From: Gammaproteobacteria bacterium
Lineage (GTDB): Bacteria > Pseudomonadota > Gammaproteobacteria > Pseudomonadales > Azotimanducaceae
Assembly (NCBI GenBank): GCA_026713185.1
Contig: JAPOOX010000258.1
Coordinates: 1 to 64,000 of the forward strand
Direction: 5' to 3'
Length of the DNA: 64,000 bases
A program made the position numbers and the translations under genes. This document shows positions 7,489 to 47,474 of the stretch, in pieces (positions within the stretch are counted from its first letter, which is position 1; every line of letters starts with the position of its first letter). Under the pieces are notes generated by a model, which was not told where the DNA came from, made no database searches, and saw only the letters and a list, made by a program, of their open reading frames with translations.

Positions 7489-7584
7489 GAATAAATGGGT
7501 TCGGAGTAAAGTGCCGGAGTAAAACGTCACGCTTTTGCAGCAACGTTGAGTTTTACTCCGGCACTTTACTCCGACCCCACTATT
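7489..7584. repeat. Hairpin element copy A
   Basis: Starts with GAATAAATGGGTTCGG, a diverged form of the family left end GAACAAACGGGGTCGG. It continues through the 5' arm (GGAGTAAA twice), the 26-base centre starting CGTCACGCTTTTGC, and the 3' arm to CCGACCCCACTATT. It truncates the integrase remnant. In the same orientation as copies B, D and E. Confidence 0.9.
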
Positions 7585-22402: not shown

Positions 22403-22501
22403 GAACAAACGGGTCGGAGTAAAGTGCCGGAGTAAAACGTCACGCTTTTGCAGCAACGTTGAGTTTTACTCCGGCACTTTACTCTGACCCCACTATTTTT
22501 T
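22403..22501. repeat. Hairpin element copy B (upstream of hipBA)
   Basis: Left end GAACAAACGGGTCGG (one G fewer than C and E), tandem GGAGTAAA arm, the 26-base centre in the forward orientation, and the 3' arm with one change (ACTCTGACCCC) to ACTATTTTT. The rest of 22324-22616 is the AT-rich hipBA promoter region. Confidence 0.92.
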
Positions 22502-22958: not shown

Positions 22959-24243
22959 ATTCAATCAGTCCGAATGTTTTGTCTATATCAACTTGCCAGG
23001 TGAGACAAGACCGGTCACTGCGGGTAAATTGGTCATTCGGCCTGATAAGTCAGGCCTGCCTCACGGGATGTTTGTCTACGGGAGAAGCTATCTGGACCGA
23101 CAGGACAAGGTGCCGATTGACCCTATCGAGTTGAAACTTTCTGACCGTGTTTATGAAACGCGCGCTTTGAAGGGCGTGTTCGGCGCCTTCCGGGATGCCG
23201 GCCCGGACCACTGGGGACGGCAGGTCCTGGAACGGCATGCGGGAAAGCCTGAACTGAGCGAACTGGATTATTTGCTTCTGTCGCCGGATGATCGGGCAGG
23301 CGCCTTGGGTTTTGGCTTGAGTCCGATAGCGCCGACTGAATCACCCGGGTTCAATCAAACCCTGGATCTGGCGCAACTGCAAAATGTTGCAATGGCTGTA
23401 GTTAATGACGAACCGCTTCCCGATGAGTCGTATAAGGAACAGGTTTTTGACCTGATGTTGGTCGGCACCTCCATGGGTGGGGCACGGCCCAAGACGGTTG
23501 TCGAAGATTATGAGGGATTGTGGCTGGCAAAGTTTAATCGCGAGGATGATAAGTGGAACAACGCCCGGGTGGAACATGCAATGTTGATGCTCGCCCGGTC
23601 TTGTGGCCTCACGTCAGCCACAAGCACCGTCGTTCAAGTCGGGAATCGTGATGTGTTGCTCGTCAAACGCTTCGACCGGGAGAAAACCGGGGAAGGCTAT
23701 ACCCGCGCCCGCATGCTCAGTGCCTTGACCTTGTTGCGCGCTGAGGATACTCACTCTGCACGCAGGAAATGGTCTTACCCTGTGCTGGCAGAAGAGTTGC
23801 GCCGAATGTCTGCAACGCCGGGTGAGAATGCCGAGGAACTGTTTCGGCGTATGTGTTTCAATGCATTAATCTCCAATATTGATGATCACCCGCGCAATCA
23901 CGCCGTTATTGCGAAAGGGCATGACTGGGAATTATCTCCTGCTTACGATTTGACTCCCTTCTCGCCTGTCAGCATTGAACGACGCGATCTGGCCATGATC
24001 TGCGGGGATGACGGCCGCCGCGCCAAGGCGGCAAACCTGCTGTCTCAATCAAACCGGTTCTGCTGGATAAAGACGCAGCGGCAAACATTCTGGATAACAT
24101 GCAAAAACAGATCAAGAGCACATGGTATGAAACGGCCTGCCGGGCAGGGGTTTCGGAATCCGACTGCAAAAAAATCAGCGGCACCTTTGTCTATGAAGGA
24201 TTCTTTTACGAACAAACGGGGTCGGAGTAAAGTGCCGGAGTAA
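22948..24243 (+). CDS. hipA: HipA-like serine/threonine kinase toxin, frameshifted near the C-terminus
   Basis: The frame encodes 431 residues. The couple domain (VYINLPGETRPVTAGKL), the P-loop-like FDLMLVGTSMGGARPK, the catalytic NALISNIDDHPRNHAVI (D312/D313) and the metal-binding PAYDLTPF (D334) are all present, so the kinase core is intact. After about residue 370 (near 24058) the protein changes to a Lys/Arg-rich tail. The +1 frame there reads on smoothly as LLDKDAAANILDNMQKQIKS and ends in TAA at 24228-24230, inside hairpin copy C. So a single-base loss probably replaced the last ~60 residues. HipA kinases phosphorylate tRNA synthetases or other targets and cause dormancy. Whether this version is active is unknown. 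Confidence 0.8.
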   Translation: MISEFNQSECFVYINLPGETRPVTAGKLVIRPDKSGLPHGMFVYGRSYLDRQDKVPIDPIELKLSDRVYETRALKGVFGAFRDAGPDHWGRQVLERHAGKPELSELDYLLLSPDDRAGALGFGLSPIAPTESPGFNQTLDLAQLQNVAMAVVNDEPLPDESYKEQVFDLMLVGTSMGGARPKTVVEDYEGLWLAKFNREDDKWNNARVEHAMLMLARSCGLTSATSTVVQVGNRDVLLVKRFDREKTGEGYTRARMLSALTLLRAEDTHSARRKWSYPVLAEELRRMSATPGENAEELFRRMCFNALISNIDDHPRNHAVIAKGHDWELSPAYDLTPFSPVSIERRDLAMICGDDGRRAKAANLLSQSNRFCWIKTQRQTFWITCKNRSRAHGMKRPAGQGFRNPTAKKSAAPLSMKDSFTNKRGRSKVPE

Positions 24244-24310
24244 AACTCAACGTTGCTGCAAAAGCGTGACGTTTTACTTCGGCACTTTACTCCGACCCCA
24301 CTATTTTTGG
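24210..24310. repeat. Hairpin element copy C (centre inverted)
   Basis: Left end GAACAAACGGGGTCGG and right end CCGACCCCACTATTTTTGG are oriented as in copies B and E, but the 26-base centre reads CTCAACGTTGCTGCAAAAGC, the reverse complement of the others. The 3' arm carries ACTTCGG instead of ACTCCGG. Its first 21 bases supply the last six codons and stop of the ancestral hipA frame. Confidence 0.93.
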
Positions 24311-29129: not shown

Positions 29130-29321
29130 TTACCCCTGATCACCATCCGGTCTCTTATCTTCCGTCTGAATACGATCGTATATTTCCTCACGATGAACGG
29201 CTACGTCTCTGGGTGCGTTCACGCCAATGCGAACCTGATTGCTTTTTATTGCCAGCACCCTGACCGTAATATCATCGCCAATCATCAGTGTTTCACCAAC
29301 TCGCCGAGTCAAAATAAGCAT
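29130..29321 (-). CDS. csrA: Carbon storage regulator CsrA/RsmA
   Basis: 63 residues starting [20 protein letters not shown], with the two RNA-binding edges (LTRRVGE and the later [13 protein letters not shown]). CsrA dimers bind GGA loops in mRNAs and alter translation and stability. It lies 20 bp downstream of lysC on the same strand, matching the Pseudomonas and E. coli order (lysC or alaS then csrA). Its length is typical. Confidence 0.96.
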
Positions 29322-33958: not shown

Positions 33959-34112
33959 ATCTTAAAAAACCGGCCGGTACTGTGAGTCTGTCAAAAGCCA
34001 TTAATGGGCATCATCAGGCAACTGCATCTTATTGCGACTGATTCTTTTACCCGGCCGGCACGACGATTGTGTCAGAAACCGATGTTGGGTGTCATCAGGC
34101 AATGGTGATAGG
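33959..34112. repeat. Imperfect duplication of the recA 3' end
   Basis: Downstream of recA two ~55-base blocks share CCGGCCGG...TGTCA...CATCAGGCAA: one includes the recA stop region (about 34050-34112), the other (about 33972-34020) follows it. The second block is bounded by the palindrome ACCGGCCGGT with a T run in the minus-strand direction, so it may be a terminator between recA and recX. Confidence 0.45.
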
Positions 34113-35144
34113 CGTAACGTTGTCAACGCCTTCACTGTTGTCATCCGACTCTCCAAGTAATCTGATGCGAATCTGCTTTTCTATTTCGTCTGCAATTTCT
34201 GGATTCTCCTCCATGTAGGCCGCGGCATTTTTCTTACCCTGGCCGATTCGATTATTCCCGTAGCTGTACCAGGCGCCGGCTTTATCGATCAATCTCAACT
34301 GGACGCCCAGATCGATGATTTCACCCAGACGATAAATCCCCTTGCCATACAGGATCTGAAACTCTGTCTGCTTGAAGGGTGGTGCGACCTTGTTCTTGAT
34401 GACCTTGACCCTGGTTTCACTGCCGACAACCTCATCACCATCCTTGATGGAACCAATTCGACGGATATCAAGACGAACAGAAGTATAAAATTTCAGTGCA
34501 TTACCGCCAGTGGTGGTTTCAGGACTGCCGAACATGACACCGATCTTCATACGGATCTGGTTGATGAATACCACCAGGGTATTGGAGTTCTTGATGTTTG
34601 CTGCCATCTTCCGCAGCGCCTGGCTCATCAGGCGAGCCTGCAGGCCTACGTGATGGTCGCCCATTTCACCTTCAATTTCCGCTTTTGGTGTCAGTGCGGC
34701 AACCGAATCCACAATAACCACATCCACAGCGCCGGAGCGTACGATCATGTCGCAGATTTCCAGCGCCTGTTCTCCGTTGTCCGGCTGTGAAATCAGCAGA
34801 CTGTCTATGTTGACACCCAGGTTACTGGCATAGGTTGGATCCAGGGCATGTTCGGCGTCGACGAAAGCACAGGTCCCTCCAATCTTCTGACACTCGGCAA
34901 TCACCTGCAGGGTCAGGGTTGTTTTCCCGGAGGATTCCGGCCCGTAGATCTCAACGATTCGACCTCTTGGTAATCCTCCAATGCCCAGCGCCACGTCCAG
35001 TCCAAGGGATCCTGTTGAAATTGATGGTATCTTTTCCTGCGGGGTATCGCCCAGCCGCATCATCGCGCCTTTTCCAAATTGTCTCTCAATCTGGGAAAGT
35101 GCCGCGTTAAGTGCTTTTTCTCTGTTGTTATCTTTATCTGACAT
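34095..35144 (-). CDS. recA: Recombinase RecA
   Basis: 349 residues: [20 protein letters not shown], Walker [11 protein letters not shown], the L1/L2 loops (including [20 protein letters not shown]) and Walker [11 protein letters not shown]. It forms ATP-dependent filaments on single-stranded DNA for strand exchange and triggers LexA self-cleavage. Length and motifs are typical. A LexA-type box lies 126 bp upstream of its start; recX follows. Confidence 0.98.
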
Positions 35145-35343: not shown

Positions 35344-35434
35344 GTGGGGTCGGAGTAAAGTGCCGGAGTAAAATGTCACGCTTTTGCAGCAACGTTGAGT
35401 TTTACTCCGGCACTTTACTCCGACCCCACTATTT
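35344..35434. repeat. Hairpin element copy D (between recA and mutS)
   Basis: Perfect 30-bp arms at 35344-35373 and 35400-35429 (GTGGGGTCGGAGTAAAG... and complement) with a 26-base centre starting TGTCACGC. It lacks the family left end GAACAAAC and has GTACCC instead. It lies between the divergent promoters of recA and mutS, where cinA is found in Pseudomonas. Confidence 0.93.
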
Positions 35435-35498: not shown

Positions 35499-38057
35499 GT
35501 GTCCCAATCATCCCATACTCCCATGATGCAGCAGTATCTCGGCATCAAGTCCCGGCATGCAGAAGAACTGCTGTTCTACCGCATGGGTGATTTCTACGAA
35601 CTCTTCTTTGATGATGCCGAACGAGCCTCGAAACTGCTCGATATCACTCTGACTTCCCGGTCCCAGCATAATAATCAAAAGATTCCCATGTGTGGTGTGC
35701 CCTATCACACCGTCGATACCTATCTCGCCCGACTGGTAAAACTCGGTGAGTCTGTTGCCATCTGTGAACAGATAGGCGATCCAAATGAATCCAAAGGACC
35801 CGTTGAAAGAAAAGTCGTTCGCATCGTTACACCAGGCACCCTCACTGAAGATGCGTTACTGGATGCCAGCCGGGATAACCTCATTACCGCTGTCAACAAA
35901 GTCGACAACACCTGGGGAATGGCGTCACTGGATCTTTCCAGCGGCAGCTTTGAACTCCAGGAACTGGATGATGATGAATCCCTTGCCGGCGAACTCTATC
36001 GACTGCTTCCGGCTGAACTTGTTACTTCCGATGCCATACTCTATCCCACTGTGGTCACCAGTCATGTCAGTGTCCGGACATGTCCGGCGTGGGAATTTGA
36101 CCATCTGAACGCGGTCAATGTACTGACAAAACAATTCAATACACGTGATCTTTCCGGGTTTGGATGTGACGGCAGAATCGCGGCGACCTCTGCCGCGGGA
36201 TGCCTGTTGACGTATGTCCAGGAGACCCAACAGACAGAGCTGCCCCATATTCATTCGCTACGCTTTGTTGATCGTGATGATTCAGTCATTATTGATCCGG
36301 CTTCCAGACGCAATCTGGAACTCGACACCAATATTGCCGGTGGCGCCGACAATACCCTGTTCCAGGTGATGAACAACACCTGCACCGCGATGGGCGCCCG
36401 ACTGCTCAAACGCTGGATCAGCAGGCCTGTCAGAGACCGGGAAATTCGCGAAACAAGACTGGATGCCATCGCTTACCTGATGGATAACTATACCTATGAA
36501 GTGCTGCAGTCACCGCTGCAGAAAATTGGCGACATGGAACGTATTCTGGCCCGCGTTGCTTTACGCTCTGCACGCCCCCGGGACCTGGCGCGCTTACGTG
36601 ATTCACTTGCCGTTCTGCCGGAACTTGAACAACTGCTTGATCAGTTTCACATTTCCGGCATCCAGGCACTGCGCGCACTTTGTCCACCCTTACCGGATAT
36701 AGCAGACGAATTGCAGCGGGCCATTGTCGACAATCCGCCGATGGTCATCCGCGAAGGCGGTGTCATCAAAGAAGGATACGACAGTGAACTGGATGAATTG
36801 CGCAGTATCAGCGGGAATGCAGCCGGATTTCTGGTGCAACTGGAGCAGGAAGAGAAAGAAAAAACCGCACTCTCGACGCTGAAAGTCGGATATAACCGGG
36901 TACATGGCTACTATATCGAAATCAGCCGGAATCAATCTGAATCAGCGCCAGCATACTATATCAGACGACAGACATTGAAGAACGTCGAACGTTTTATCAC
37001 CCCGGAGTTGAAGACCTTTGAAGACCAGGCATTGTCGAGCAAAAGCAGGTCCCTGGCACGGGAACGGGAACTCTATGAACGCCTCATCGACAGACTTCTG
37101 GAATTTCTGGTCCCAATGCAGAAGGCAGCCAGTGCAATTGCAGAACTGGATATACTGACCAACCTTGCCGAGCGGGCAACTTCCCTTGATCTGTGCCGTC
37201 CCAATCTGTCCGCGGAACCTGGTATTGAAATTCGGGGAGGCCGGCATCTTGTGGTGGAACAAATGCTGTCAGACCCATTTGTCGCCAACGACCTGATCAT
37301 GAATCAGGACCGCCGCATGTTGATCATCACCGGCCCCAACATGGGTGGCAAGTCAACCTATATGCGACAGATTGCACAAACCACGATTCTGGCGCATATC
37401 GGCAGTTTTGTGCCTGCGAGTTACGCCGACATTGGCGAGATAGACCGGATATTTACGCGTATCGGCTCGTCCGACGATCTCGCCAGCGGACGTTCGACTT
37501 TCATGGTCGAAATGACAGAGACAGCTTTGATTCTCAATAACGCCAGTGAAAACAGTCTCGTTCTTCTGGATGAGATTGGACGCGGCACTTCGACTTTTGA
37601 TGGTCTGTCGCTTGCCTGGGCCTGTGCCTGCCACATGGCGGAACATGTTCGTGCCCTGACGCTGTTTGCTACACATTATTTTGAACTGACCGCGCTTGAG
37701 GAAACGCTGACTGCCACCAGAAACGTACATCTCTCCGCCCGCGAATTCGAGGACAGGATCATCTTCATGTATTCCGTGTGTGAAGGTCCGGCAAACCAGA
37801 GTTACGGGTTGCAGGTGGCCAAACTGGCCGGCATACCAAAACCGGTCATTGAAGCTGCCCGGAGAAAACTGAAAGTTCTGGAGCAGAATGATGTCAGACG
37901 AGACAAGGTACCGATTCAGTCTGACCTGTTCGTTGCGCCAGACCCGGTCGAAGAATCTTTAAAGGACCACCTCTCTGATATCGATGCCGACAATCTCTCA
38001 CCCCGTGAAGCACTCGACCTGACCTACAGACTAAAGGCGATACTCCGGGACCAATGA
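35499..38057 (+). CDS. mutS: DNA mismatch repair protein MutS
   Basis: About 852 residues. N-terminal [20 protein letters not shown] with the mismatch-wedge segment [14 protein letters not shown] (Phe-Met-Glu), the lever and clamp domains, and the ATPase with [13 protein letters not shown] (Walker A), [14 protein letters not shown] and [11 protein letters not shown]. It recognises mismatches and recruits MutL. I take the GTG at 35499, which gives the family N-terminus; ATGs at 35523/35526 are alternatives. The open frame reaching back through the hairpin element is not expected to be translated. Confidence 0.95.
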
Positions 38058-38227: not shown

Positions 38228-38551
38228 ATGACATTTGTGGTAAGTGACTCCTGTATCATGTGCAAGCACACGGACTGTGTAGAAGTCTGCCCGGTAGACT
38301 GTTTCTATGAAGGTCCGAATTTCCTGGTGATCCATCCCGACGAGTGCATCGACTGTGCTTTATGTGAACCTGAATGCCCCGTGGACGCCATATTTTCAGA
38401 AGACGAATTACCGGAAGAAGAGCAGGAATTCCTGGAGCTCAATACTGAACTCTGCGAAATCTGGCCCAATATTACGGAAAAAAAGGATCCTCTGGATGAC
38501 TACGAAGCCTGGGAGGATGTAAAGGGCAAGTTGCAATACCTGGAGCGCTGA
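38228..38551 (+). CDS. fdxA: Ferredoxin FdxA (7Fe-8S type)
   Basis: 107 residues: [20 protein letters not shown] with the first cluster cysteines, then [16 protein letters not shown] as the second 4Fe-4S set and an acidic C-terminal tail. It is an electron carrier in the cytoplasm. AGAGGAAC precedes the ATG. In related gammaproteobacteria fdxA is followed by rpoS and nlpD; here unrelated genes follow. Confidence 0.95.
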
Positions 38552-38588
38552 TCAGTCTCTACAGCAATCGGCAGCAACCCGGAACCCC

Positions 38589-38670
38589 CTGCGAACACTC
38601 CCGTTAAGTATTCCAGAAAATAATTCATAATTTTCACCCCACAGCAGATGGCTTTGGGGTGTTCGTTTGC
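38589..38670. repeat. Rearranged remnant of the 145-bp element
   Basis: CAGATGGCTTTGGGGTGTTC at 38645-38670 matches the left end of the 28923 element with one difference in 26. About 40 bases earlier, CTGCGAACACTCCCGTTAA (38589) matches the sequence just outside the right end of that element. Both ends are kept in reversed order with the interior lost. Confidence 0.6.
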
Positions 38671-38745
38671 GTAAGCCTGTTTTGGAACTACAACCCGATG
38701 TAATTTGGGCTATTCAGATTTTCCAATCTGGTCAACAACAGCTAA

Positions 38746-38790
38746 TACAGATTATCTACTAATTTGTCATAAATTAGTAGATAATCTGTA
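38746..38790. repeat. 45-bp palindrome before fic (P1)
   Basis: Perfect 20-bp arms TACAGATTATCTACTAATTT with a 5-base loop (GTCAT). It ends 34 bases before the fic start. As RNA it would be a strong AT-rich hairpin; as DNA an operator or recombination site. See P2 at 40286. Confidence 0.85.
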
Positions 38791-38824
38791 ACAGAAGCTT
38801 TGATCACTACAGGACGAACCGTAT

Positions 38825-40180
38825 ATGCGAATGCCCAAGTCCCCACCGTCCATCCAGAGTCTGCTCTCTTCCGTCACTTCCGAAAGGCTGAGTGAGTTGT
38901 TGCGATCCGATATCGGAAACCTGCCTCTCGGCAGATACCTGCATTGGGATGAAGTGCGAGTCAGGCCTTCTCCCAAAGGGTACACCAGCGAAGAGTGGTG
39001 GACCGCGATCAAGCTCAAGCGACTCTCCTCTCGACACATCCTCCCGTTTATGGATAAGTCGAACTTCGAGTTCTCGTTCAACGACTCCGGAGACATATAT
39101 CGACTGCTCCACGAAGTAGACCGGGAAGCAAGCGGGCGTATAGAGGTTCCTCGCGCAAATGTGGTCAATCCGGACCAACGTAACATGTACATAATGAATT
39201 CGTTGATCGAGGAAGCAATAACTTCCAGTCAGCTTGAGGGTGCTGTGACAACTCGCCGCGTGGCGAAGGAGATGTTGAGGTCTGGTCGTTTACCCCAGGA
39301 CAACAGCGAGCAGATGATCGTTAACAACTACAATGGCATGGAATTCCTGCGTATGCACTCGGATGAGGACCTGTCTGTGCAGATGCTTCTTGAGCTACAG
39401 AAAATCCTCACCGAAGGGACGCTGGATGATCCCAATGCAGTAGGACGGTTCAGGAATGAGTCTGACAACGTTCACATCGTCGATCAACGAGATGGGACCA
39501 TTGTGCATGTTCCACCGTCATCGCACGAAATCGAAGCCCGGATGGTGCGATTAGTCAAGTTTGCAAATTCCTACGACGAAGAACATTTCATCCATCCTGT
39601 AGTCAAGGCAATACTTCTTCATTTCATGATCGGCTATGACCACCCGTTCGTGGACGGCAATGGCCGAACAGCCCGCGCACTGTTCTATTGGTCGATGGCG
39701 CGGTCGGGTTACTGGTTAACTGAGTTTCTCTCTATATCAACGATCATTCGGAAATCTCCAGCACAGTACGTACGTGCCTATGTGTATTCAGAAACTGATG
39801 ACAACGACGTTACGTATTTTCTTCTCTACAATCTTCGAGTGATCTCGAGAGCAATCCAGTCTCTCCACGATTATCTGTCACGGAAGGCTAAAGAGAGCAA
39901 TGCTCTGGAAGACAGGCTTAGAGAGTCGGAACTTGCTCACATCCTCAACCACCGACAAGTTGCATTGCTTGCACACGTATTGAAGCACCCTGATACAACT
40001 TATACGATTGAGAGTCATCGTCGATCTCACAATGTCACCTATGAGACAGCAAGGACAGACTTGATCGGTCTCGACAAACTAGGATTAATTACCAGCAGAA
40101 AGCAACGACGCAAATTGGTATACAGGCGGCATCGAAACTTTGAGAGTCTGATACAGTCGACTTTTACACGTAAGACATGA
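38825..40180 (+). CDS. Fic-family protein with inhibitory helix and C-terminal winged helix
   Basis: 451 residues. The N-terminal Fic_N-like region leads to T133-S134-S135-Q-L-E138-G139, an (S/T)xxxE(G/N) inhibitory motif (class II arrangement, Glu blocking the ATP gamma-phosphate). The Fic motif HPFVDGNGRTAR starts at H273. The C-terminus (about 380-440: HRQVALLAHVLKHPDTTYTI, VTYETARTDLIGLDKLGLIT) is a winged-helix domain, so it may also bind DNA, possibly its own palindromic upstream region. Predicted function: AMPylation under auto-inhibition. It stands where rpoS is expected and is bracketed by related palindromes. Confidence 0.9.
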   Translation: MRMPKSPPSIQSLLSSVTSERLSELLRSDIGNLPLGRYLHWDEVRVRPSPKGYTSEEWWTAIKLKRLSSRHILPFMDKSNFEFSFNDSGDIYRLLHEVDREASGRIEVPRANVVNPDQRNMYIMNSLIEEAITSSQLEGAVTTRRVAKEMLRSGRLPQDNSEQMIVNNYNGMEFLRMHSDEDLSVQMLLELQKILTEGTLDDPNAVGRFRNESDNVHIVDQRDGTIVHVPPSSHEIEARMVRLVKFANSYDEEHFIHPVVKAILLHFMIGYDHPFVDGNGRTARALFYWSMARSGYWLTEFLSISTIIRKSPAQYVRAYVYSETDDNDVTYFLLYNLRVISRAIQSLHDYLSRKAKESNALEDRLRESELAHILNHRQVALLAHVLKHPDTTYTIESHRRSHNVTYETARTDLIGLDKLGLITSRKQRRKLVYRRHRNFESLIQSTFTRKT

Positions 40181-40285
40181 CACTGAACGCTGTAGAGAAC
40201 ACACTTGATACTACAAACCAGGCAATGAATACACTCGATGTACGACACTCGGCGATAGAATGTGGTCTGATTTCATTCTCTCTAA

Positions 40286-40330
40286 TACAGAATAACTACT
40301 AATTTAGTATAGATTAGTAGTTATTCTGTA
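40286..40330. repeat. 45-bp palindrome after fic (P2)
   Basis: Same build as P1: left arm TACAGAATAACTACTAATTT, loop AGTAT, right arm with one mismatch. The sequence around it resembles P1's (CTAATACAG before, AACTGAATCTTCGATC after, against AACAGAAGCTTTGATC), so the two are copies of one ~80-bp unit. Confidence 0.85.
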
Positions 40331-40395
40331 ACTGAATCTTCGATCTCAACAGAACGCTTCGTTCATTCAGAAAGAATGGTGATGACGAAACATAC

Positions 40396-40421
40396 GGGGT
40401 TGGAGTCTTTACTCCTACCCC
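40396..40421. repeat. Short inverted repeat related to the hairpin family
   Basis: GGGGTTGGAGT (40396-40406) and ACTCCTACCCC (40411-40421), 11-bp arms with one mismatch around CTTT. It resembles the outer tips of the hairpin element (GGGGTCGGAGT/ACTCCGACCCC), including the preceding ACATAC against ACAAAC. It ends five bases before the PhyH stop and could act as its terminator. Confidence 0.6.
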
Positions 40422-40426
40422 AGGGA

Positions 40427-41323
40427 TCAGGCCCAGGGATTGTAGCCCGCAGCCATCATATAGTTATTTTCTTCTTTTGATGCCGGTTTTCCCTCTTTGA
40501 ATGGGTACATACTGTTTGCGCCGATAAGATGCGCGAACTCAACCGGGTGCCGATCAAGTACTTCTTTTGGGACCGTACTAAAGTCATTAATCGGCTTCAT
40601 ATATACCCGCGTAAATGTCATGATCAGGTTCATTCTCAAACCCGGATTTCCCCTGGGGTACGAGCCGTGCCAGGTGGCGCCCTTCCAGACGATCAGAGAA
40701 CCGGCCGCCGCCTCGACAGGTATAGCCTTGACCGGCGCATCCTCGCCCAGGAAGTTGCCTTCCTCAGGCAGCGGATAGCGCCCTTTCAAATGACTCTTGG
40801 GGACTATCGCTGTAGTGCCATCGCCCTTCCTGTAGTCAGTCAATGTCCAGGTCACATTGCAGACCTGAGAATAAGGCGGCAGCGGGGGCGGTGTGCCGTG
40901 TTGATCGGTGTGCAGCGGATGAGTAAATCGTTCATGCTTCTGCTTCAGCATGCCAAGCAGTTCGCTCAAAATCACACTGTTGCCGCATAGATATTTCGCC
41001 ATGGCAAGCACCGTGGGGTTCATAATCACTTCCTCAAATACCGGGTCTTCAGTGAGAATGTCCCAGTGACTTTTAACCGGGGTGTCCTTGCTCAGTGTGG
41101 CGGTTGCGATATCATCAATGTGCTGACCGGTACGTTTTTCGTGAACCTCAAGCACCGCGTGACGTAAACGGTCCTGGAATACCTCCGGCGCCACCAGGTC
41201 TGGCGGAATCACGGCGTAACCTTCTTCGTCGAGATGATCAATGTGGTCAACGAGCCCCAGCTTCTCGATCTGCTCGTAGATCTTCTTGTAGTGCTTTGAA
41301 TCTTTGTATTGTTCCAGGCTCAT
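40427..41323 (-). CDS. Phytanoyl-CoA dioxygenase (PhyH)-family oxygenase 1
   Basis: 298 residues. It has the 2-oxoglutarate/Fe(II) site HTDQHG (His-X-Asp) and the second iron His with the 2-OG Arg in SLIVWKGATWHGSYPRG...LRM. Family members hydroxylate lipids, natural products or small substrates; the substrate here is not deducible. The ATG at 41323 has AGGAGA 8 bases upstream and gives MSLEQYKDSKHYKK; the frame upstream of it is not expected to be coding. It is divergent from the TonB-dependent receptor, and a second PhyH follows that receptor. Confidence 0.85.
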   Translation of the reverse strand: MSLEQYKDSKHYKKIYEQIEKLGLVDHIDHLDEEGYAVIPPDLVAPEVFQDRLRHAVLEVHEKRTGQHIDDIATATLSKDTPVKSHWDILTEDPVFEEVIMNPTVLAMAKYLCGNSVILSELLGMLKQKHERFTHPLHTDQHGTPPPLPPYSQVCNVTWTLTDYRKGDGTTAIVPKSHLKGRYPLPEEGNFLGEDAPVKAIPVEAAAGSLIVWKGATWHGSYPRGNPGLRMNLIMTFTRVYMKPINDFSTVPKEVLDRHPVEFAHLIGANSMYPFKEGKPASKEENNYMMAAGYNPWA

Positions 41324-41392
41324 AACGCTCTCTCCTTTCGTTGTAGCGGTTGAAAGAGGCGCCGCCAGGCGCGTGGTTGACAATTTCTCATT

Positions 41393-41411
41393 AGTACACT
41401 ATATAGTACAC
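41393..41411. promoter_or_regulatory. Candidate operator between phyH and TonB receptor
   Basis: AGTACACTATATAGTACAC contains a direct repeat AGTACAC (41393, 41405) and a perfect 10-bp palindrome ACTATATAGT (41398-41407). It lies centrally in the 120-bp divergent intergenic region, so it could control both genes. No regulator is encoded nearby. Confidence 0.4.
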
Positions 41412-41443
41412 ATACAATCTCAATCAACAACGGGGGAATTACC

Positions 41444-43825
41444 ATGAATCAAGAACAAACAACGACACGCCCAACGCTATTCAAACGCCTGGGCGCGGCG
41501 CTGGTCATGACGAGTTTCAAAATGAAAAAACTGATAGTTCTATGCGCATTGTCACTATTTGCTACCAATTCAGCATTCGCTGAGTCAGATGAGACAGAAG
41601 AAGGAATAATAGAAGAGGTAGTCGTCACAGCAACCTACCGGGAAACCGACCTGATGGATACGCCGGTATCTATCAGCGCGGTCACCGATGAAATGGTAAG
41701 GGATACGGGAGCACACGACATGGAAGGTCTGTTTACCCTGATCCCAAGCCTCAGTATGTCCACTGGGGGTGGGGCCGAGGGTAAGCATCGCTATACCGTG
41801 CGGGGTGTCACCGCACAGAGTGGTTATGTCGGCAGTTCGCCCACAATGGGTACAGTCGGTATCTACATTGATGATGTTCCGGTGACATCAAATTTGGGAC
41901 CGGATAGTCAGATGAACGGGGTCCTGTTTGATATTGAGCGGGTGGAAGTGTTAAAGGGTCCCCAGGGCACGCTATTCGGCGAAGGCTCGCAAGGCGGCAC
42001 CATTCGCTATCTCTACAAGCAGCCCGATCCTGGTGGTTTCGATGCGGCCGTGAACCTCAGTGCTGCGTCCATGGAAGATTCTGACGACAACTCATCGCGG
42101 ATAGATGGCATGATAAACCTGCCACTGGGTGATTCTGCTGCCATACGGTTGGCCGCATGGCGTTCGGAAACAGCAGGCTTTATCGACAATCAGACGCCAG
42201 TTGAGCCGGACTATAATACGGCTGAGTCTGAAGGGGTTCGGGCCTCAGTGCGCCTGGAAGGGGAAACATACACGGCTACGCTAACCTATCGCACGAGCGA
42301 GCAACGGACCAAGGGCGGCAATTCCACCTCTGCACCTTACACTGTGCGGACCGCTAGAATACCTGAACTCCCGCCTTCTTCTTTTGATGAAACCGGAATC
42401 ATCAATCTGGATATTAAAAAAGAATTCAGCTGGGGGACCCTTCAGTCTCTGACTTCCTCTTTGTCGCGTGATGGCGGAGCAATAAACGAGAGTAGCGCCT
42501 TTGGTCCTGCACTCTCGGATTTCTTCTATTTCGGCGCCATAGACGCTGTAGGCCATGAGCAGTGTGAACGTGCGGATATCCTCGGGGCGGCGTTCGGCCT
42601 GCCGGGTTTGTGTGGATTCTGGCCGGGACTGCTTGCAGGGGCGGGCATCCCGAGTGATGGCAGGAATATTATTGCGCAGTCGTCTCGGGGTGGGTTCGAC
42701 AGCGAGCTGTTGGTACAGGAGTTTCGCCTGGTGTCGAACGCGGATGGGCGACTGCGGTGGACCGCCGGTTTCGTCTATAAAGACAACGAAGACTCACGCA
42801 GGCTTACTCCGGTCGTCGGCTATTATCCTGGTCGGGAGGCCGCAAAGCCATTGTTTGATCCGATCTTGACGGAAAACCCTACCCTCAATCACGACGACTT
42901 TTTGGAGGAGACAGCTGTCTTCGGCGAGATCAGTTACGACCTCTCGGATACGCTTGAGATAACCGCAGGCATACGATGGGCTGACCTCGAACAAACTTTT
43001 CAGCGGGCGCCGGAAGGTAACACGCACGACACGCCGGTGTCCCCCAAGCTGGTGTTTGCATGGCAACCAAGGGATGAGCTGTTGGTGTATGGCGGCTATA
43101 CTACAGGTTTCAGACCCGGCAACGTGAACAACGGTATAGCGTTTAATCTCAACTCGGGATTTGTAGCCGATCCTGAGTTTTCCCGTCAGTTCCTGTTTTT
43201 TAATGGTGACGAAGTTGACAACTTTGAGCTGGGTGTCAAGACGACGTTCTGGGAGGGCCGTGTGTCCCTGCAGGCTGCGGCCTTTTTTCTCGACTGGAAA
43301 GACATGCTGGTACACGACAGTAATCCCCGTGTCATCCCCCAGGGTATCTACAACGCCAACAGCGGCGGTGCCGAGATTAGAGGAGCCGAGTTCGAAGTTA
43401 AGGCTTACTTGACCGATAGTCTGCAGATTCGACTCACCGGTGACGTCAATGATGCGGAAATCACCGGTGGAGGGGAATTCCAGACTAGCCCCGTGGGTAA
43501 CGATCTCACCTATTCCCCAAACCACAGCTATTCCCTCTCGATCAACTACGAGCTAGGGCTGCAAAATGGCTGGAGGCTGGATTTTTATATCGACAGGGCC
43601 TGGGTCGCCAAGCAATTTCAGGATCCCCGGAACACCGTAGTAATACCCAGTTACGAGCGGTCAAACGGCCGCGTTACGCTGACCAGTGCGGATGAAAAAT
43701 GGCGTGTGGCGCTGTTTGGCGCCAATCTCGATGATAAGCAGACCCTGCGGGGTCTGAATGAAACCGGGACGCTATACTGGTTCGATCCCCGGCAGCTTGG
43801 TATAGAGGTTGGTTACCGGCTATAA
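41444..43825 (+). CDS. TonB-dependent outer-membrane receptor
   Basis: 793 residues from the ATG at 41444 (GGGGGAATT before it), or 767 from an internal Met at 41522 that begins a textbook signal peptide (MKKLIVLCALSLFATNSAFA). After cleavage comes the acidic start and EVVVTATYRETDLMDTPVSI (TonB box/plug start), plug-domain motifs (YTVRGVTAQSG, DVPVTSNLGPDSQMNGV, EVLKGPQGTLFGEGSQGGTI), then the 22-strand beta-barrel ending in RQLGIEVGYRL. It imports a large or scarce substrate with TonB energy. The neighbours are PhyH oxygenases, so the ligand may be what they hydroxylate; that is inference. Confidence 0.93.
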   Translation: MNQEQTTTRPTLFKRLGAALVMTSFKMKKLIVLCALSLFATNSAFAESDETEEGIIEEVVVTATYRETDLMDTPVSISAVTDEMVRDTGAHDMEGLFTLIPSLSMSTGGGAEGKHRYTVRGVTAQSGYVGSSPTMGTVGIYIDDVPVTSNLGPDSQMNGVLFDIERVEVLKGPQGTLFGEGSQGGTIRYLYKQPDPGGFDAAVNLSAASMEDSDDNSSRIDGMINLPLGDSAAIRLAAWRSETAGFIDNQTPVEPDYNTAESEGVRASVRLEGETYTATLTYRTSEQRTKGGNSTSAPYTVRTARIPELPPSSFDETGIINLDIKKEFSWGTLQSLTSSLSRDGGAINESSAFGPALSDFFYFGAIDAVGHEQCERADILGAAFGLPGLCGFWPGLLAGAGIPSDGRNIIAQSSRGGFDSELLVQEFRLVSNADGRLRWTAGFVYKDNEDSRRLTPVVGYYPGREAAKPLFDPILTENPTLNHDDFLEETAVFGEISYDLSDTLEITAGIRWADLEQTFQRAPEGNTHDTPVSPKLVFAWQPRDELLVYGGYTTGFRPGNVNNGIAFNLNSGFVADPEFSRQFLFFNGDEVDNFELGVKTTFWEGRVSLQAAAFFLDWKDMLVHDSNPRVIPQGIYNANSGGAEIRGAEFEVKAYLTDSLQIRLTGDVNDAEITGGGEFQTSPVGNDLTYSPNHSYSLSINYELGLQNGWRLDFYIDRAWVAKQFQDPRNTVVIPSYERSNGRVTLTSADEKWRVALFGANLDDKQTLRGLNETGTLYWFDPRQLGIEVGYRL

Positions 43826-43844
43826 CTACCGGTTCCAACAGATT

Positions 43845-44723
43845 ATGGACATAGCATCACTAGGCACCTTGCCACAACTTGATGCCCTCATGCAGGACTT
43901 CGAGCGCTACGACATCACCCAACATGCGCTTGAGCTTGCGACCTATGGATTTACCGTGGTTCCCCCGGAAAAGCTCCGCATTGAGGATGGCTTCGTCGAC
44001 CGGCTCCGCAACGCGATCATCAGTACCGCCGAACGACGCCACGGCATCGAGATCGGCGATTACACCACTGCAAACGTCGAGGAGAACGTGGTGGGAAAGA
44101 AAGCCTGGCGACTGCTGTTCGAGGACCAGGCCTTCGTCGACGCCGCGCTCAACCCGGTCGCACTGTCATTGATACGCTTCCTCCTCGGCCAGAGCGCCGT
44201 GCTGTCCGCGAACTTGTGGATCATCAAGCCACCCAACAAGCGCAAGCTGGCTCTGCACAGTGATGCGGCCGGGATCACACTCGGGGCCGGCCAGATCGCC
44301 CACGTGGTCAACGCATCCTGGCTCTGCACCGACTACGTGGACGCCGACGACGGGCCGACAGTCCTCGTCCCCGGCAGCTTCCGATTCGGCCGCGGGACAC
44401 TCCCGCACGAGTCCGATCCGTTGGACACCCCGTTCCCGGTCGTGCCGCTGCAGGGCAAAGCCGGGTCTTGTGCCATCTGGCACGGAGGCACCTGGCACGG
44501 ATCGATACCGAGGAGCCGGGACGGACTCCGGATCACCCTGGTGCAGAACTGGATGCGCTCCTACATGAAGCAGGTCCACCAGTGGGATGATGCTCCCGCC
44601 GACCTTCTCGAGCGGCACCCTGAGCTCAATCACATCCTCGGACTCGACTCGTACTTCCCCTACGGCGAAGATCCGAATCCGGACGGGAAGTTCATTCTAA
44701 GGAGCATTGATCCGTATGCCTGA
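43845..44723 (+). CDS. Phytanoyl-CoA dioxygenase (PhyH)-family oxygenase 2
   Basis: 292 residues. The iron ligands are in LHSDAAG (His-X-Asp) and CAIWHGGTWHGSIPRSRDGLR (His, 2-OG Arg). It shares the WHGS region and the ending (SYFPYGEDPNPDGKFILRSIDPYA against ANSMYPF...AAGYNPWA) with the 40427 protein, but is distinctly more GC-rich in codon use than the receptor before it. It begins 19 bp after the receptor stop and is likely cotranscribed. Convergent with nlpD, with hairpin copy E between them. Confidence 0.85.
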   Translation: MDIASLGTLPQLDALMQDFERYDITQHALELATYGFTVVPPEKLRIEDGFVDRLRNAIISTAERRHGIEIGDYTTANVEENVVGKKAWRLLFEDQAFVDAALNPVALSLIRFLLGQSAVLSANLWIIKPPNKRKLALHSDAAGITLGAGQIAHVVNASWLCTDYVDADDGPTVLVPGSFRFGRGTLPHESDPLDTPFPVVPLQGKAGSCAIWHGGTWHGSIPRSRDGLRITLVQNWMRSYMKQVHQWDDAPADLLERHPELNHILGLDSYFPYGEDPNPDGKFILRSIDPYA

Positions 44724-44750
44724 ACTGTATGGGCCCAAAACGATGGGTCA

Positions 44751-44846
44751 GAACAAACGGGGTCGGAGTAAAGTGCCGGAGTAAAACGTCACGCTTTTGC
44801 AGCAACGTTGAGTTTTACTCCGGCACTTTACTCCGACCCCACTATT
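44751..44846. repeat. Hairpin element copy E (between phyH 2 and nlpD)
   Basis: GAACAAACGGGGTCGG left end, tandem GGAGTAAA arm, 26-base centre (CGTCACGC...) in the common orientation, and 3' arm to CCGACCCCACTATT. As the two flanking genes converge here, the hairpin could also work as a bidirectional terminator. Confidence 0.92.
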
Positions 44847-44862
44847 AAGGCTCCCCCTGATA

Positions 44863-45819
44863 CTACAAGGACGGCAGATATCGCAGGGGGTCCTCCGGCT
44901 CACCCTTCAATCTGATCTCAAAATGCAGAGTCTCCCCTTTTGGAGCATTCGACCCGATACTGGCAAGAACCTGACCCTGCTTTACAACTTCTCCCTCATG
45001 AACCCGAATGTCCTGATTGTTACTGTACGCACTCAGATATTCATCGTTGTGTCTGACGATAACCAGATTGCCATACCTTTTTTGTTCCCCGACATACACC
45101 ACGACACCATCGGCAGCGGCGTTGACCCGGTCCCCGTCATTTCCCCTGATATCAACCCCCTTGTTGACATTGCCGGGACGGAGGGAAAATCTTTTGACGA
45201 GTTTTCCGCGTAGTGGCCACTGCCAGCTTAACCCGTCTGTCACTTTACTGTCCGGTTGTGAAGAATCCATCCTGATATCATTTTCTGGCGGTCCGGGTAA
45301 CTGCGTTGGAGTTGACACGATCGCAACCTCCCCGGTTGACCGGGAAGACTCAGCAGGTTCTGGCGAGGTCGTTATCTTTGCAGTCGACCGGGAAGACTGC
45401 GCCGGTTCAGGCCTGGTTGTAACCTCCGCAGACGGCCGGGAAGACTGCGCTGATTCAGGCCTGGTTGTAACCACCTCAGACGACCGGGAAGACTCAGCAG
45501 GTTCTGACACGGCAGTATTCACATCCAGTACGATATTCTGACCCACGAAAATCGTAAAAGGAGGGCTGATATTGTTCGCCCGGGCAACATCCCTGTAATC
45601 CAGACCGTTGAGAAAAGCGATGGAGTACAGAGTATCTCCCTTGCGTACACGATAAGTACCCAGGCTGGTGGTACTGCTGGCTGTTACTGCTTCAGTCCGA
45701 ACTTCAGTTTGAGCTTCGGTTACCGCCGCACTGATATCCTGCACCGGCTTGATGCTTTTCTGACTGCCACATCCGAAAACAACAGGCAGGAAAATCAATA
45801 TCCAGAATTTACGGATCAT
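44863..45819 (-). CDS. nlpD: NlpD-like lipoprotein (LysM plus degenerate M23 domain)
   Basis: 318 residues. Lipoprotein signal MIRKFWILIFLPVVFGCGSQ with the lipobox cysteine at 17, a LysM domain (TYRVRKGDTLYSIAF, about 55-100), a Ser/Thr/Pro-rich linker of four ~16-residue repeats (about 106-171), and a C-terminal M23 (LytM) domain with GVDIRG and GETLHFEIRLKGEPEDP. The first zinc His is missing, so it is the activator type of NlpD/EnvC that stimulates AmiC during cell division. It normally follows rpoS in this group; here rpoS is absent upstream of it. Confidence 0.88.
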   Translation of the reverse strand: MIRKFWILIFLPVVFGCGSQKSIKPVQDISAAVTEAQTEVRTEAVTASSTTSLGTYRVRKGDTLYSIAFLNGLDYRDVARANNISPPFTIFVGQNIVLDVNTAVSEPAESSRSSEVVTTRPESAQSSRPSAEVTTRPEPAQSSRSTAKITTSPEPAESSRSTGEVAIVSTPTQLPGPPENDIRMDSSQPDSKVTDGLSWQWPLRGKLVKRFSLRPGNVNKGVDIRGNDGDRVNAAADGVVVYVGEQKRYGNLVIVRHNDEYLSAYSNNQDIRVHEGEVVKQGQVLASIGSNAPKGETLHFEIRLKGEPEDPLRYLPSL

Positions 45820-46805: not shown

Positions 46806-47474
46806 TTATACTTTCCCGGACAGCAGTGGCACAAAACGAACCTTATCCATAACCTCCGTAGTGACACCCGGACCGGATTTTTCCCGCGTTACCATAACCA
46901 GATCCTGTACACCCCCACTACCCAACGGCACGACCATCCTGCCGCCAGGCGCAAGTTGTCTGATCAGTTCTTCCGGGATGGACATAGGCGCTGCCGTTAC
47001 CATAATACCGTCGAAGGGGCCTTTCTCCGGCCAGCCCATGCCTCCGTCCGCATGCCGGTGGCTGATATTCCACAAGCGCAGGAGCTTGAATCTCCTTACT
47101 GCCTGCTCAAGTAGTTTCTCGATCCTTTCCACGGTGTAGACCTTCTTCACCAGCTGGGCCAGGATTGTTGCCTGATAACCGGAACCGGTGCCTACTTCCA
47201 GGACTCTGGACAGGGGACCCGTCGCCAATAACAACTCTGTCATTCTGGCAACCATATAGGGTTGGGAAATCGTCTGGTTGAATCCAATCGGTAATGCCAT
47301 GTCTTCGTAAGCCCGGTGAGAGAGAGCTTCATCAACAAACAGGTGCCTGGGAGTCGAGTTGATCACATCGAGTATTCTCTGATCTGTGATACCCTGATCC
47401 AGCAGTCTGTTGATCAACCGGTTTCTGGTCCGCTGGGAAGTCATCCCCACACCGGACAAATCAATTTCACCCAT
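46806..47474 (-). CDS. pcm: Protein-L-isoaspartate O-methyltransferase
   Basis: 222 residues. [19 protein letters not shown] and [20 protein letters not shown] at the start, the SAM-binding [39 protein letters not shown], and the conserved C-terminal VRFVPL. It methylates isoaspartate residues in damaged proteins so that they can revert. In Pseudomonas surE and truD lie between it and ispF; here the gap to ispF is only 66 bp, so both are missing. Confidence 0.95.

Follow-up and report, generated by a model that had tools for sequence, protein, structure and literature searches.

RpoS usually acts as the master switch in starvation and stress, and in free-living gammaproteobacteria it is treated as the standard regulator of the general stress response. 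In Pseudomonas its gene lies in the order nlpD-rpoS-rsmZ-fdxA (PMC3395598, PMC4353343), and we find nlpD-rpoS-fdxA kept in Pseudomonas, in Zooshikella, and in several other families and lineages. Loss of RpoS in E. coli favours nutrient uptake over stress protection, the SPANC trade-off (PMC7527412). The same source places lineage-wide losses in the alpha- and epsilonproteobacteria and describes the others as strain polymorphisms (PMC7527412, citing Chiang and Schellhorn 2010). The loss described here is like these cases in that a non-essential stationary-phase sigma factor has gone, one whose loss alleles are favoured where uptake outweighs stress protection, but it differs in being recurrent within a single gammaproteobacterial family, with the site itself preserved. 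It is a real, recurrent gene loss of a kind already known. In the literature searched we found no paper on rpoS together with OM182, on rpoS loss with nlpD in Gammaproteobacteria, or on the losses in this family.

The locus lies in a window of 64,000 nucleotides, the whole stretch of DNA analysed. A check of gene order places recA (34095-35144, minus strand) and mutS (plus strand, ending at 38057) before fdxA (38228-38551, plus strand), a ferredoxin gene that borders the former rpoS site on the left and is 84-88% identical to its counterparts at this position in the six congeners. On the right flank stands nlpD (44863-45819, minus strand; LysM and peptidase M23 domains by Pfam), directly downstream of which rpoS is found in relatives, and then come a DUF368-like gene and pcm (46806-47474, minus strand). 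These coordinates confirm the mutS-fdxA and nlpD-pcm order given in the initial annotation, and its statement that Pseudomonas has rpoS between fdxA and nlpD also holds (mutS-fdxA-rpoS-nlpD). The two flanking genes are convergent, with stops at 38551 and 44863 and about 6.3 kb between them. None of the open reading frames of this interval (38552-44862) encodes rpoS, and neither an nhmmer DNA profile nor tblastn detected remnants at the window site or in emptied gaps. The annotation was thus right that the gene is gone from the interval, where these searches found not even a trace of it, and right that fic, PhyH, a TonB receptor, a second PhyH and repeats fill the space, as both Pfam and repeat analysis agree.

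Relatives point to this site as the original one. The arrangement nlpD-rpoS-fdxA is retained by no fewer than a dozen members of this family, with rpoS present at the site in G007, G091, G165, G011, G147, G152, G150, G169, G015, G139, G024, G020, G172 and G149; the first three of these are close to the genus studied here, and many of the other holders belong to the other half of the family. The RpoS protein tree places the copies that G007, G091 and G165 carry at the site in one group (support 99), beside the site copies of other families, a position that fits descent in place. A second RpoS paralog, encoded away from fdxA, forms a separate and well supported group in the other half of the family (L210-L228); it often accompanies the site copy and is the sole copy in G010, G036 and G099-G102. 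Gene order and the protein tree together indicate that rpoS is ancestral at this site. The earlier claim of a loss at the ancestral site is upheld, there being site copies in relatives within and outside the family and no intact rpoS elsewhere in this genome.

The latter result comes from a search of the whole assembly (3.38 Mb in 352 contigs, 98.8% complete), which the initial annotation had proposed as the way to tell loss from relocation. The RpoS model TIGR02394 (cut-off 379 bits) matched four proteins, all below the cut-off, which speaks for loss; the top scores, 275 and 271 bits, belong to two full-length RpoD-type proteins, and RpoH scores 142 bits. Nor does any of the seven genomes of the genus (this one and the six congeners) hold an RpoS over the cut-off. 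That rpoS has moved is an idea suggested by the other half of the family, with its RpoS-like genes away from fdxA, but neither this genome nor its congeners have one, and the model readily detects RpoD and RpoH; relocation is extremely improbable, and for the assembled 98.8% of the genome it is already refuted. An assembly in 352 contigs could also prompt the suspicion that incompleteness has hidden the gene. Against this stand the high completeness, a site that is assembled intact, and the agreement of all seven genomes of the genus, and such an artefact is almost certainly not the explanation. Most of the compared genomes are multi-contig drafts, in which single absences carry some risk, but that risk is small because the fdxA-nlpD junctions are intact and none of the seven genomes of the genus has the gene. 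A 78-aa sigma fragment at a contig end (L004 2-235) was considered as RpoS and rejected, its sequence reading like the C-terminus of RpoH. It is the second RpoH-like C-terminus in this genome.

A different question is how the present content of the site came to be there. The initial annotation had the 6.3 kb replacing rpoS, and a swap of this cargo for the gene in one recombination event would account for its occupying the site and for a gap that starts and ends close to both flanking genes. The congeners do not bear this out. Their fdxA-nlpD gaps measure 54, 64, 198, 275, 318 and 469 bp, and none contains fic, a TonB receptor or PhyH. In the MutS tree, G006 is the earliest branch of the genus; this genome splits off next, ahead of the other five congeners. 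Because the six congeners branch both before and after this genome and every one of them lacks rpoS as well as the insert, the gene was lost before the insert arrived; a one-event replacement is already contradicted and very improbable. A lineage-specific loss of rpoS followed by an unrelated insertion is, judging from these comparisons, very probably the correct order. Such a course would begin from an ancestral order nlpD-rpoS-(RsmZ-like sRNA)-fdxA. The deletion of rpoS would have taken place before the genus diversified, probably in an ancestor common to it and two other sampled genera, and would have joined the end of nlpD to the promoter of the sRNA, whose gene may later have been lost separately in some species, including that of this genome. 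The cargo would have entered this lineage only after the loss, landing in non-coding sequence where fdxA and nlpD converge; it would have consisted of fic together with the palindromes on either side of it, the uptake-and-oxidation set in which PhyH diverges from TonB receptor-PhyH, and the pair of dispersed repeats.

Most genomes of the family lack rpoS, and the loss is no peculiarity of this genome. By our count, about 32 of 206 family genomes have an intact-looking RpoS-like protein that scores clearly above the RpoD proteins, and in the OM182-like sub-clade intact RpoS is found in about 3 of 62 (also our count). The family includes OM182 bacterium MED-G24 (placed as G033 by identical match coordinates and an identical MutS), which puts the marine OM182 clade inside it; the family may correspond to GTDB Pseudohongiellaceae. 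From the distribution on the MutS tree, rpoS appears to have been lost many times across the wider family. Losses-only parsimony gives 16 genome-level losses, falling to 12 when branches below 80 support are collapsed and to 8 when those below 95 are (each count takes in one outgroup, Luminiphilus), and 10-11 changes are needed when gains are allowed; the number is uncertain because several branches of the MutS tree are weak. Genus g2 is mixed, with RpoS in G007 and G091 and none in G092 and G093. Two relatives hold damaged copies at the site: that of G025 is frameshifted, and that of G022 is without the QTIERAIMNQTRTIR stretch of region 2 and has an internal TGA. Both genes are visibly broken, as decaying intermediates would be; the lesions could be assembly errors. 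A cell of the kind studied here would be without an RpoS-type general stress response, and its stress regulation is presumably changed. By analogy with the known losses, selection may plausibly have favoured the losses in a marine oligotroph lineage, where taking up nutrients would count for more than protection from stress. Relatives that hold rpoS, carry a broken copy or have an emptied site offer ready comparisons for this trade-off outside the laboratory, and the family lets one ask what controls starvation without RpoS.

The emptied site also shows that the neighbours nlpD, fdxA, and an sRNA can outlive the gene that defines the locus. In the congeners G002, G003 and G006, and also in G088, G086, G008, G178 and G177, the emptied gap contains a conserved element that is rich in GGA, has a strong terminator on the strand of rpoS and is preceded by TGTARG-type boxes (gaps with the sRNA candidate: L116, L117, L120, L131, L132, L138, L141 and L142; also L121 and L125). 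It lies on the fdxA side of the gap in the three congeners, and in the rpoS holders G007 and G165 it lies downstream of rpoS, that is, between rpoS and fdxA. The candidate has many GGA motifs and a terminator hairpin, and 5 of the 17 pairs predicted for it show changes on both sides. Half boxes of the form TGTARGAYAT, arranged in tandem at a spacing of 22 bp, are clearest in G002, G003 and G088 and mostly do not make up the full Pseudomonas palindrome. In G001 the promoter part alone is kept, without the sRNA. Rfam returned no match to the relatives' element, which did not reach the RsmZ gathering score; in a Pseudomonas control, RF00166 was found in the same position (L049 13076-13209). "RsmZ-like" is therefore a reading from position and features, and on that reading the element would be a candidate sRNA with putative GacA-type boxes. 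The locus resembles that of Pseudomonas in gene order, and several relatives likewise have a GGA-rich sRNA candidate with a terminator and TGTARG-type boxes, situated between rpoS and fdxA where rpoS persists and in the gap where it has gone. It differs in that rpoS is gone, the relatives' sRNA scores below the Rfam threshold for RsmZ, and this genome has lost the sRNA as well. The fdxA-fic intergenic region (38552-38824) matches neither the sRNA model R1 nor the promoter+sRNA profile; the best candidate for such an sRNA elsewhere in the genome (E 0.44) was not accepted, and searches of the genome for tandem boxes with 2 mismatches and for a single palindromic box found none. The gene csrA (29166-29321, minus strand; PF02599, E 9.1e-25) is retained in all seven genomes of the genus, this one included, in which the site's candidate CsrA-binding-type sRNA is missing.

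The two full-length RpoD-type proteins of this genome (open frames of 655 and 610 aa) bear on how the loss might have been tolerated. One, of 607 aa and encoded on contig C111 (L191 2755-4578), is probably the product of the original rpoD; the protein next to it resembles the end of DnaG in sequence. The second is a 640-aa protein on contig C47 (L190 4509-6431) and belongs to one well supported group (100 in the tree), present in all OM182-like genomes that were sampled for it apart from G008, in which only one RpoD was seen. A takeover of RpoS duties by the C47 protein, which would add to the loss and is no alternative to it, is suggested by the occurrence of this group throughout the sub-clade where so few genomes keep an intact RpoS. 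However, the rpoS holder G007 and G025, with its broken rpoS, also carry the second RpoD, which must therefore predate the loss; repeated losses of RpoS occurred in the family's other half with no second RpoD present; and the recognition regions of the C47 protein resemble those of ordinary RpoD. Since it is older than the loss, and losses also occurred where it is absent, the second RpoD is at most permissive, and the takeover is unlikely. Doubtful as well is the broader proposal that RpoS was dropped eight or more times in a family that has free-living marine members and that, in the family's OM182-like half, the older duplicated full-length RpoD and the remaining Gac/Rsm-type circuit would serve the starvation response instead. 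In G013, four RpoD-like genes lie close together on one contig (L207).

Judged by its genes, the insert combines fic with what looks like an uptake-and-oxidation set. The Fic/DOC protein gene (38825-40180, plus strand; PF02661, E 7.7e-19) encodes the HPFVDGNGRTAR motif and an inhibitory-type SSQLEG motif. A first PhyH-type dioxygenase gene (40427-41320, to 41323, minus strand; PF05721, E 3.7e-20) is divergent from a TonB-dependent receptor gene (41444-43825, plus strand; PF00593 and PF07715), and directly behind the latter comes a second PhyH-type gene (43845-44723, plus strand; PF05721, E 3.1e-13), where the insert has a local G+C content of 65%, unlike the surroundings. The HxD...H ligands are kept in both dioxygenases. 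Two 75-nt repeats, 81% identical, flank fic, and each contains a near-perfect palindrome: copy 1, with 20-bp arms, just upstream of the gene (38746-38790, within the repeat 38742-38816), and copy 2 downstream of it (40286-40330, within 40282-40356). The palindrome occurs nowhere else in the genome, and the repeat may serve the Fic protein as an operator, or it may be the trace of a lost second copy. The only Rfam matches at the window site were chance ones of microRNA type to palindromes. At the right edge of the insert (44759-44840) stands an inverted pair of a 29-bp dispersed, REPIN-like repeat, GGGGTCGGAGTAAAGTGCCGGAGTAAAAC, with further inverted pairs in the window at 7497-7578, 22410-22491, 24218-24299 and 35346-35427. 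Single-motif matches number 1 in G002, 32 in G006 and 66 in this genome (about 30 pairs), with none in the other four congeners, and, like REPIN/REP elements, the repeat is scattered over a single genome as short inverted pairs at many sites.
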